Assembly: GCA_944392965.1 (NCBI GenBank)
Contig: CALXYM010000001.1
Location: 124,001-188,000 of the forward strand
Direction: 5' to 3'
DNA length: 64,000 nt
From: an uncultured Spirochaetaceae bacterium
Lineage (GTDB): Bacteria; Spirochaetota; Spirochaetia; Sphaerochaetales; Sphaerochaetaceae
Shown here: positions 2,199 to 6,156 of the stretch, in pieces
How positions within the stretch are numbered: position 1 is the stretch's first letter
Layout of the letters: each line of letters opens with the position of its first letter
Program-made: the position numbers and the translations under genes
The notes under the pieces: model-generated
What the model was told of the DNA's origin: nothing
Databases searched by the model: none
The model's input: only the letters and a program-made list of their open reading frames with translations

Positions 2199-3392
2199 TT
2201 AGATAGCTGCCATCATGGTAGGTACGACGGAAATCAGAACACCTGCTGCAACCGCACTTCCGATAACACCGGATACGTTCGGTCCCATGGCATGCATGAG
2301 AAGGAAGTTCTGAGGATCCGCTTCCTGACCGACCTTGCTTGATACACGGGCCGCCATAGGAACAGCTGATACTCCTGCAGATCCGATAAGCGGATTCGTA
2401 GGATGCTTCGGATCAAGCTTGTTCATGAGTTTTCCAAGCAGGACACCACCTGCGGTTCCGACTCCGAATGCTACCATTCCAAGAAGGAGGATTCCGAGCG
2501 TCTCAAGATTAAGGAACCTGTCTGCTGCCATCTTTGAACCTACGGAAAGCCCGAGGAAGATGGTTACGGTGTTCATAAGTGCATTCTGCATCGTATCAGA
2601 AAGCCTTCCGATGACACCGCACTCTTTTGCAAGGTTACCGAACATGAGAGCTCCGATGAGTGGACATGCGGATGGAAGAAGAATAGCACAGACCGTGATT
2701 ACCATAATCGGGAATACGATCTTCTCAAGTCTGCTTACAGGCCTGAGCTGCTGCATTTTTATCTTCCTTTCCTTCTCTGTCGTCAACAGCTTCATGATTG
2801 GTGGCTGGATGATTGGAACGAGGGCCATGTATGAGTATGCGGCAACTGCGATTGATCCAAGATAATCAGGAGCAAGACGGCTTGTCACATAGATGGCTGT
2901 AGGTCCATCAGCACCACCGATAATTCCGATTGATGATGCGACAAAAAGATCGAAGTTGATTCCCGGGATGAAGGAAAGGAGCAGTGCTCCGATAAGAGCG
3001 GTGAAAATTCCGAGCTGTGCCGCGGCTCCTAAGAGAAGAGTCTTTGGATTTGCGATCAGCGGTCCGAAATCGGTCATTGCTCCAACTCCCATGAAGATGA
3101 GGACGGGGAAGAGCCCCGATTCGATACCAGCATTATAAAGAATCTGGATGAATCCCGCATCTCCACTGGTGGGATCAACACCTGCGATATATGCAAACGG
3201 GATGTTTGAAAGAATACATCCCATTCCGATTGGAATAAGTAGCAGGGGTTCAAAGCCCTTCTTGATTGCAAGATAGAGCAGTACGAAGCCTACCAGGATC
3301 ATCAGGGCATTGCCCCATCCCCCGTCCTGCATGAATCCGACGATTCCCGTCGTATTCCATAGCGATTTTGCGCCTTCAATAATAGCTTCCAT
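2199..3392 (-). CDS. oadB: Oxaloacetate decarboxylase beta subunit (sodium-ion pump)
   Basis: 397 residues, very hydrophobic, about nine to eleven membrane segments. It is the integral membrane subunit that decarboxylates carboxybiotin and uses the energy to export Na+. The conserved GGADGPT motif, whose Asp is essential for Na+ in studied homologues, is present, as is the charged cytoplasmic loop TEKERKIKM. Length and motifs match OadB/MmdB/GcdB. It follows oadA by 12 nt and a terminator follows it. The companion substrate subunit is OadA, so oxaloacetate is the likely substrate; the beta subunit alone would not distinguish it from methylmalonyl-CoA decarboxylase. Confidence 0.95.
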
Positions 3393-3404: not shown

Positions 3405-5855
3405 TTAACCTATTGTCATAAGGAGGTCGCCAGACTGGAGCTGGTCACCCTGGTTGACATCGATACTCATGATGGTGCCTGTTGCCGGAGAGTAGATCTC
3501 ATTCTCCATCTTCATAGCTTCCATGACCATGAGCAGGTCATTTTCCTTTACCTTGTCACCGACCTTTACCGCAAAGCGAAGAGCAAGACCAGGCATTGGT
3601 GCGTTAACCTGAACACTTCCTTTCGCTCCTGTTGCAACAGGTGTTGGTTCTGCTACCGGCTCTGGTGCCTTTACCGGCTCTGGCTCTGGTGCGACTGGAG
3701 CTGCTACCACAGTACCACCAATCTGCATGAGGAGGTCTCCAGACTGAAGCTGATCACCCTGCTTTACACAGATCTTTGATACAACGCCATCGCAAGGGGA
3801 GTAGATCTCGTTCTCCATCTTCATAGCCTCCATGACCATGAGGATGTCGTTCTTCTTAACTGTATCTCCTTCCTTGACCTCGAAGCGGAGAGCAAGGCCT
3901 GGCATTGGAGCTGTGATATCAGTGCTGCCTGTAACAACTGTCGCGGCCTGAGGAGCTGGAGCTGCCTGTGGTGCTGCAGGAGCGGCCTGAGGAGCTGGAG
4001 CTGCTGTCGTGGTTACGACCGTTCCGCCGATCTGCATGAGAAGATCACCAGACTGAAGCTGATCGCCCTGCTTTACACAGATCTTTGAAACAACACCGTC
4101 ACAAGGAGCATAAATCTCGTTTTCCATCTTCATAGCTTCCATGACCATGAGTACATCGTTCTTCTTGACTGTATCTCCTTCCTTGACTTCGAAGCGGAGA
4201 GCAAGGCCTGGCATTGGAGCTGTGATATCGGTACTTCCTGTGACCACAGTAGTTACTGTCTGCTGTGCAACAGGGGCTGCCTTAATTCCATCAACGATAG
4301 AAAGCGGATACTTCACTCCGTTGACCGTCGCCGAATCTTTCTCGAGCTTAACAGCATAAGAGGCTCCGTTGACAGTGACTGTGTATTCTCCATTGGAGCT
4401 CTTCTTCTCTGCAGCAGCAGGAGCTGCTTCTGCTTTCTTCTTCTCTTCGCTGATCTTTCTTACTCCGTTGACCTTTGCCTTTCCTGTGAGGTAGAGGATA
4501 CCCTTGTCCTTACAAGCAGCGGCGATGAATACGTTCTCATCTGTGATCGGAAGTCCAGCATCCTTGAGCATTGCTTCAGCAGCTGCTCTTCCCTTCTTAG
4601 GATCACGGTCGTTGATATCAGCACATTTTTCAGTTGTCGGCTCAAGCTTAAGCTGCGCTGCTGCGAGTTTTACGACCTCCGGATCCGGTGCTACAGGGGT
4701 CTTTCCGAAGTAACCGAGAACCATCTTGCCGTAACCTTCTGCGAACTTCTTCCATGGTCCGAACATGACGTTGTTGAACGCCTGCTGGAAATAGAACTGG
4801 CTGACAGGTGTAACAGATGTTCCGAAACCACCTTTTGCAACGGTCTCACCCATGGCCTCAACAATCTGAGGATACTTGTCCATCAGTCCGTTATCTCTGA
4901 GCATCTGTGTATTGGCAGTCAGAGCTCCACCAGGGAGAGGGAAGAATGGGATTTCAGGATTTACCATCGTTGCTTCTGGCGGGAGGAAGTAGTCCTTCAT
5001 ACAATCTTCGAAAACCTTTTCCGCATTTCTTACCTTGTTGATGTCGATGTCGAGGGTATAATCTGTTCCTCTTAAAGCATGCCACATCGTAATGATGTCA
5101 GGCTGACAGGTTCCACCTGAACAAGGGCTCATGGAGAGGTCTACCTGATCAGCACCTGCTTCAATGGCTGACATGTACTGCTGGATGGATACTCCTGCCG
5201 TCTCATGGGAATGGAATACGATCTTCACATTTGGTCCGAGCATCTTTCTTGCTCTCTTTATCGTCTCATATACGTTATGCGGAGTCGATGTACCGGATGC
5301 ATCCTTGAAACATACACTGTCGTATGGGATTCCCGCATCAAGGATCTGGCGGAGAATCTTCTCATAGAAATCAGGATCATGAGCACCTGTCACACCCTCT
5401 GGGAGACTCATCATCGTTACGGTGACCTCGTGCTTGAGTCCCGCCTCGTGAATATATCTTCCGCTGTCGATGAGGTTGTTGACATCATTTAGTGCATCGA
5501 AGTTCCTGATAGTCGTCATTCCATGCTTCTTGAAAAGCTGGGCATGGAGCTTGATCATGTCGCGTGGCTGACTGTCAAGTCCTACTACGTTCACACCTCT
5601 TGCCAGAGTCTGGAGGTTCGCATCAGGGCCTGCGACCCTTCTGAACTCATCCATCATCTCGAATGCATCCTCATTCGTATAGAAATATAATGACTGGAAT
5701 CTTGCGCCACCACCTGCTTCAAAGTGTGTGATACCCGCTTCTTTTGCAGCTGCAACAGCAGGCATGAAGTCTTTTGTGAAGACGCGAGCTCCGTAAACGG
5801 ACTGGAATCCGTCACGGAATGCCGTACACATAAAATTAACTTTCTTCTTGCTCAT
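3405..5855 (-). CDS. oadA: Oxaloacetate decarboxylase alpha subunit with three tandem biotinyl domains
   Basis: 816 residues, against roughly 590-610 for a standard OadA. Residues 1-270 form the carboxyltransferase TIM barrel (N-terminal RDGFQS and metal-site HSHETAG motifs), followed by the conserved PYC/OADA domain to about residue 430. The subunit moves the carboxylate of oxaloacetate to biotin, giving pyruvate. The C-terminus carries three biotinyl domains, each with EAMKMEN; the biotin lysines are Lys576, Lys679 and Lys782, exactly 103 residues apart. The linkers are Ala/Pro-rich. Copies 1 and 2 are nearly identical and copy 3 is more diverged. It sits between oadG (10-nt gap) and oadB. 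Confidence 0.95.
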   Translation of the reverse strand: MSKKKVNFMCTAFRDGFQSVYGARVFTKDFMPAVAAAKEAGITHFEAGGGARFQSLYFYTNEDAFEMMDEFRRVAGPDANLQTLARGVNVVGLDSQPRDMIKLHAQLFKKHGMTTIRNFDALNDVNNLIDSGRYIHEAGLKHEVTVTMMSLPEGVTGAHDPDFYEKILRQILDAGIPYDSVCFKDASGTSTPHNVYETIKRARKMLGPNVKIVFHSHETAGVSIQQYMSAIEAGADQVDLSMSPCSGGTCQPDIITMWHALRGTDYTLDIDINKVRNAEKVFEDCMKDYFLPPEATMVNPEIPFFPLPGGALTANTQMLRDNGLMDKYPQIVEAMGETVAKGGFGTSVTPVSQFYFQQAFNNVMFGPWKKFAEGYGKMVLGYFGKTPVAPDPEVVKLAAAQLKLEPTTEKCADINDRDPKKGRAAAEAMLKDAGLPITDENVFIAAACKDKGILYLTGKAKVNGVRKISEEKKKAEAAPAAAEKKSSNGEYTVTVNGASYAVKLEKDSATVNGVKYPLSIVDGIKAAPVAQQTVTTVVTGSTDITAPMPGLALRFEVKEGDTVKKNDVLMVMEAMKMENEIYAPCDGVVSKICVKQGDQLQSGDLLMQIGGTVVTTTAAPAPQAAPAAPQAAPAPQAATVVTGSTDITAPMPGLALRFEVKEGDTVKKNDILMVMEAMKMENEIYSPCDGVVSKICVKQGDQLQSGDLLMQIGGTVVAAPVAPEPEPVKAPEPVAEPTPVATGAKGSVQVNAPMPGLALRFAVKVGDKVKENDLLMVMEAMKMENEIYSPATGTIMSIDVNQGDQLQSGDLLMTIG
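3408..4247 (-). repeat. Three 309-bp-spaced in-frame repeats encoding biotinyl domains
   Basis: Biotinyl blocks lie at about 4017-4247, 3708-3938 and 3408-3629, with biotin-lysine codons at 4128, 3819 and 3510. The period is exactly 309 bp. The two upstream copies are almost the same at DNA level, so the array may change copy number by recombination. Confidence 0.9.
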
Positions 5856-5865
5856 TTGATACCCC

Positions 5866-6156
5866 TTATCTCTCTTTGTCGTAGGCTGCTGCGATAGCTG
5901 CTGCTATGGCCGCATCATTGCTCTTCGCAACTACGTTTGGCGTTGCTGTCGCGCTTGGTTTCTTTTCGACGGTCTTCACCTCAGATGTCTGAGGGGAGAT
6001 CCTCGCACAGATCTTACTCATCAGCTTTGTCGCATAGATGAGAAGAACGAGGAAGATGAAAACCGTTCCCATTCCAAGAACCAGCAATATAAGCCCATCA
6101 TAGATTTGTTGGACAAGGACTTCTCGAGGCAAATTTGTCAACAATGATAACATCAT
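5866..6156 (-). CDS. oadG: Oxaloacetate decarboxylase gamma subunit
   Basis: 96 residues: one N-terminal membrane span (about residues 18-43), then a basic stretch and an Ala-rich tail. OadG assembles the alpha and beta subunits and, in studied enzymes, binds zinc and speeds decarboxylation. GAGGAGAT lies just upstream; the second Met (6153) is an equally good start. The sequence alone is weak, but its size, topology and place before oadA and oadB make the call firm. Confidence 0.87.
   Translation of the reverse strand: MMLSLLTNLPREVLVQQIYDGLILLVLGMGTVFIFLVLLIYATKLMSKICARISPQTSEVKTVEKKPSATATPNVVAKSNDAAIAAAIAAAYDKER

Follow-up and report, generated by a model that had tools for sequence, protein, structure and literature searches.

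Why would the alpha subunit of an OAD-type sodium pump carry three biotinyl domains in a row, when the pumps of Klebsiella, Salmonella and Vibrio have one? The question is raised by a stretch of 64,000 nucleotides from an uncultured Spirochaetaceae bacterium (the window), in which an 816-amino-acid frame with an ATG start and no internal stops runs on the minus strand from 5855 to 3405. The motif EAMKMEN, which fits the (A/S)MKM pattern of biotin sites, occurs in it three times; lysines 576, 679 and 782 are separated by exactly 103 residues in both intervals, and the last of them lies 34 residues short of the C terminus. Pfam Biotin_lipoyl passed in three separate stretches (whole-protein E value, 5.7e-63), and in a six-frame scan of the whole genome each copy scored 76 to 80 bits against a cut-off of 22.1. 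Frame reading and Pfam thus confirm the three intact domains and their period, as described in a sequence-only reading of the locus. That reading had also called the first two copies nearly identical in DNA, which holds for the protein only: over the 74-residue domain, 68 of 74 amino acids but just 190 of 222 nucleotides (86%) are identical, the codon differences being 21 synonymous and 6 non-synonymous. Copy 3 is farther from copy 1, with 136 of 198 nucleotides and 50 of 66 amino acids identical.

The gene is the middle member of a complete oadG-oadA-oadB operon on one strand, with gaps of about 10 bp each (Table 1); an Rfam search found no riboswitch near it. The oadG-like protein seems to cross the membrane once and has a C-terminal tail rich in Ala.

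Table 1. Parts of the oadG-oadA-oadB operon and of its alpha subunit, in window coordinates
Feature	Position	Strand	Details
oadG-like gamma subunit	5866..6156	-	96 aa; Pfam OAD_gamma E 5e-19; TIGR01195 above cut-off
alpha subunit carboxyltransferase domain (residues 1-460)	4476..5855	-	Pfam PYC_OADA and HMGL-like
small beta-sheet (residues 490-520)	4296..4388	-	strands 490-517 in AlphaFold model
linker ahead of biotinyl domain 1 (residues 525-543)	4227..4283	-	pLDDT <50 over 520-538
biotinyl domain 1 (residues 544-610)	4026..4226	-	predicted biotin lysine 576 at 4128-4130
linker 1-2 (residues 611-646)	3918..4025	-	Ala/Pro/Thr/Gln-rich, 50% Ala+Pro; pLDDT <50 over 613-641
biotinyl domain 2 (residues 647-713)	3717..3917	-	predicted biotin lysine 679 at 3819-3821
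linker 2-3 (residues 714-748)	3612..3716	-	Pro/Ala/Glu-rich, 43% Ala+Pro; pLDDT <50 over 716-745
biotinyl domain 3 (residues 749-816)	3408..3611	-	predicted biotin lysine 782 at 3510-3512
oadB-like beta subunit	2199..3392	-	397 aa; Pfam OAD_beta E 4.7e-159; putative carboxybiotin decarboxylase/Na+ pump

The composition of the operon makes a decarboxylase sodium pump by far the likeliest role for its predicted products. OAD_beta and OAD_gamma proteins are encoded in the adjoining genes, as is usual for OadA, and the beta subunit could be aligned with the solved Salmonella OadB (6iva) over most of its length. Residues E40, D203, R304, N311, S382 and N412 of the Salmonella protein, which are required for sodium binding or decarboxylation (PMC7274780), all have equivalents in it, those of the sodium-site residues D203, S382 and N412 being D162, S342 and N372. 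These sodium-site residues, the small gamma subunit, the shared operon and an alpha chain composed of carboxyltransferase, association and biotinyl domains are common to the window's pump and the known OAD pumps (PMC7274780). In the carboxyltransferase domain, the metal-binding or catalytic residues R14, D15, Q18, R86, K184, H215, H217, D239 and T349 were invariant in all 89 aligned rows. Solved relatives of this domain are transcarboxylase 5S (1rqb) and OadA-2 (2nx9), and D15, K184, H215 and H217 align with the latter, indicating that the barrel with its metal-binding Asp, two His and carbamylated-Lys position is present.

The window protein differs from known OAD alpha subunits in its divergent carboxyltransferase domain as well as in its domain number. 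It reached 428 bits against the OadA equivalog model TIGR01108, below the cut-off of 756.5, but exceeded the cut-off of the broader PRK09282 model, and its best-scoring sequence match among solved structures was transcarboxylase 5S. On these grounds the sequence is best described as that of a divergent OadA-type alpha subunit, and because of the score below the TIGR01108 cut-off, oxaloacetate can be named only as the presumed substrate. OadA family profiles, with about 590 positions, stop after one biotinyl domain; where OadA has a single C-terminal biotinyl domain, the window protein has three. Pyruvate carboxylase subunit B and transcarboxylase 5S share the carboxyltransferase fold with it but occur without oadB or oadG partners, and have one biotinyl domain or a separate carrier. 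A dedicated biotin carboxylase partner gene, expected for subunit B, was not found in the window genome, whose one Biotin_carb_C protein (biotin carboxylase) is clustered with AccB and fatty-acid synthesis genes, as named from the sequences. Since the only biotin carboxylase sits in this cluster and oadB and oadG flank the gene, we disfavor pyruvate carboxylase subunit B. The AccB beside AccC was the only other strong biotin carrier in the whole-genome Biotin_lipoyl scan, a fifth match on contig C19 being weak (24 bits), and the genome contains one biotin ligase match.

An AlphaFold model based on a 30-sequence alignment (mean pLDDT, 73.5; pTM, 0.55) displayed an alpha/beta barrel region, a beta sheet and, for the most part with high confidence, three beta-rich domains that have the lysine at a hairpin; it is uninformative on the placement of the domains relative to one another. 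By likeness to VcOAD2 (PMC7274780), the sheet probably serves as the association domain to which the gamma tail attaches. The stretches of low pLDDT match what is expected of flexible linkers.

The sequence-only reading had set the window protein apart from one-domain OadA proteins as exceptional and had called for a survey of spirochaete homologues. Among 85 distinct full-length proteins, three, two and one domains were found in 10, 50 and 25, respectively. The three-domain array was present in ten distinct genomes of the window's genus (Candidatus Ornithospirochaeta-like, Spirochaetales; those relatives that bear names are metagenome genomes of Spirochaetales, several of them under the label Candidatus Ornithospirochaeta), and a further three-domain protein was found in another genus of the same family (L129, genome G137). 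Every full-length protein examined in the genus had two or three domains, two being the norm, so the window protein is less exceptional than had been thought. A single domain is common elsewhere in the class, and two-domain forms occur in other families of it (G037, G050, G056, G155, G077, G142, G070 and G083). Spacing between lysines in the relatives ranged from 94 to 114 residues, so that the exact 103-residue period, seen in the window sequence only, is not conserved. Searching 297 genomes of the class for tandem MKM codons by DNA pattern gave only seven matches, a figure that is not a count, since the permitted gap of 260 to 290 nt was so tight that the window's own array escaped it. Outside the class, an OadA-type protein of a Kiritimatiellae genome (L098:4989-7130) has two biotinyl domains with DVMKMET motifs, apparently the result of an independent duplication.

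Domain number has changed repeatedly. One-, two- and three-domain proteins are scattered over the catalytic-domain tree of the 85 proteins, which requires at least 16 changes, in keeping with the earlier suggestion that copy number can change. In a tree of the individual domains, which with 68 columns per domain left many forks poorly resolved, the last domains of two- and three-domain proteins grouped together, and domain 1 of the former fell with domains 1 and 2 of the latter. The simplest history would therefore start from two domains in the ancestor of the genus, with the inner domain duplicated again in at least two of its lineages, that of the window and that of L004 to L007 and L046. 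Within the window's clade, three domains are found in L001 and L003 and two in L030, L031, L033 and L034, even though the catalytic regions of the latter four are 95 to 97% identical to the window's. Copies 1 and 2 of one protein (dS, 0.68 in L001 and 0.25 in L003) were less diverged from one another than the catalytic regions of L001 and L003 were (dS, 1.38), yet the nearest match to domain 2 of the window was domain 1 of L031 (dS, 0.36). The present sequence data do not discriminate between separate duplications, gene conversion and losses. With one to three arms in the relatives and the biotin site almost always intact, the multi-arm design looks real and like one that evolved repeatedly rather than an assembly error.

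Are all copies maintained? In 10 of 10 three-domain proteins, dN/dS between copies 1 and 2 was 0.018 to 0.090, at dS values of 0.09 to 0.68, indicating that copies which have had time to decay have stayed intact. None of the 157 domains in the tree set lacked the Met-Lys motif. Since every copy in the genus retains the biotin lysine and dN/dS is this low, each copy is, as judged from these comparisons, under purifying selection. Loss is possible in OadA-type proteins of the class, where other families include some that lack the lysine or the domain altogether. In other genera or families, L116, L152, L164 and L167 have an OadA-type biotinyl domain without the lysine motif (FMMMET in L152, for example). 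That every lysine in the genus persists argues that every copy there is used. Among the same wider set, L156 has a first biotinyl domain that looks degenerate by eye, followed by an intact second one, and G057, the source of L116, has a separate biotin-carrier-like frame just upstream of an OadB gene on C22, suggesting split pumps.

We think it somewhat more probable than not that the protein is a multi-armed swinging biotin carrier on the alpha subunit of an OAD-type sodium pump in a gut spirochaete. All three lysines would be biotinylated by the genome's single biotin ligase. Each domain would be loaded with CO2 at the carboxyltransferase barrel of its own or a neighboring alpha chain and would then swing to the beta subunit, where carboxybiotin would be decarboxylated and sodium pumped. 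The extra arms would raise the local carrier concentration and extend the reach, so that several carboxyl groups could be in transit per alpha chain, for which the multi-lipoyl E2 chains of pyruvate dehydrogenase serve as a model; arm number would shift through in-frame duplication or loss of the inner domain. In OAD pumps already studied, the gamma tail and alpha associate at 1:2, and as many as six alpha chains could dock on a beta3gamma3 core (PMC7274780). By extrapolation, with three arms on each alpha chain, the three beta sites might be surrounded by as many as eighteen carriers.

Parts of this arrangement have precedents. The glutaconyl-CoA decarboxylase (Gcd) of Clostridium symbiosum has two different carrier subunits in one pump, GcdC1 and GcdC2, and thus shares with the window's pump more than one biotin carrier as well as Ala/Pro-rich flexible linkers (PMC7145394). 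Its carriers are, however, separate small subunits rather than tandem domains, and its carboxyltransferase acts on a CoA ester. E2 chains such as E. coli E2p bear between one and three lipoyl domains, again on linkers rich in Ala and Pro (PMC8421416, PMC6270654). They share with the window protein a homologous carrier fold, tandem copies, the linkers and a number that varies between species, and phmmer aligned window residues 659 to 814 with residues 21 to 176 of the E2 chain 7b9k. In E2, by contrast, lipoate and acyl transfer take the place of biotin and CO2, the array is N-terminal, and the complex is not a sodium pump. Our search of a library of open-access papers found no description of tandem biotinyl domains in a biotin-dependent enzyme. 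Why carrier chains such as E2p should have several swinging arms is an old question, studied essentially in one enzyme family; the same architecture is seen here in an ion pump that depends on biotin. Because related bacteria naturally have one, two or three arms, what arm number does to rate and sodium coupling can be tested directly in a second system, independent of the first. More tentatively, multi-arm carriers that correspond in function to multi-lipoyl E2 chains may have evolved repeatedly in spirochaete pumps, with arm number as an evolvable parameter of rate or coupling, adjusted by inner-domain duplication, and with inner and outer arms specialized.

Among the explanations to be weighed against a multi-armed carrier, an assembly artefact is the least credible. 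A repeat could have been collapsed or expanded, tandem repeats being a known cause of misassembly and the genome a draft in 38 contigs. We reject this, since the copies differ at 14 to 31% of positions, far beyond read error, and the array recurs with species-specific sequences in ten distinct genomes of the genus and in one from a different genus; three domains in ten or more relatives remove the worry. The main rival is that the array is a neutral product of unequal crossing over, with all copies biotinylated and redundant and arm number without functional effect. The frequent changes on the tree fit this, as does the difference between close relatives, the window species and L003 having three domains and their two-domain neighbors being so similar in the catalytic region. 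Several points also weigh against multiple working arms: biotinylation and activity are deduced from sequence, gene conversion between copies could likewise hold them similar and lower dN, and many relatives manage with one or two arms. Chains of E. coli E2p with fewer lipoyl domains stay catalytically competent, and the benefit of extra arms may therefore be small. Neutral redundancy nevertheless seems unlikely to us, given the very low dN/dS between copies and the absence of lysine loss in the genus, and a neutral process would not ensure that all full-length members seen there have at least two copies. Several working arms, as proposed in the sequence-only reading, fit this conservation best; they might also, as suggested there, reach several beta subunits.

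It is improbable that only one arm, presumably the C-terminal one, delivers carboxyl groups to beta while the others mainly extend the tether or bind elsewhere. The long, apparently flexible linkers would suit such a spacer, and the outer copy forms its own lineages apart from the inner ones (domain 3 of three with domain 2 of two), which means that positions may have specialized. A spacer, however, would need neither the biotin lysine nor the hairpin, both kept in all copies, and linkers alone could lengthen a tether. Still less probable is that the extra arms serve a second, orphan OadB-type subunit. A gene for one, of 376 aa, is encoded elsewhere in the genome (L173:6826-7956, minus strand; contig C5, about 81825-82955) with no carboxyltransferase or biotin carrier nearby, and at least two OadB-type matches were found in 34 of 35 other genus members searched. 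Any interaction between the two is, however, hypothetical, and the presence of a second OadB does not track arm number, which makes it a weak reason for extra arms: G037, G050 and G056 have a two-domain OadA but one OadB, and G087 has a one-domain OadA frame but two OadB genes.

The second OadB-type gene adjoins genes for a DUF1538 transporter-like protein, a PII-like protein and a 98-aa small membrane protein without a Pfam match. At L173:9385-10673, also on the minus strand, two adjoining frames resemble, by reading, a group II intron reverse transcriptase/maturase that a frameshift seems to have disrupted.
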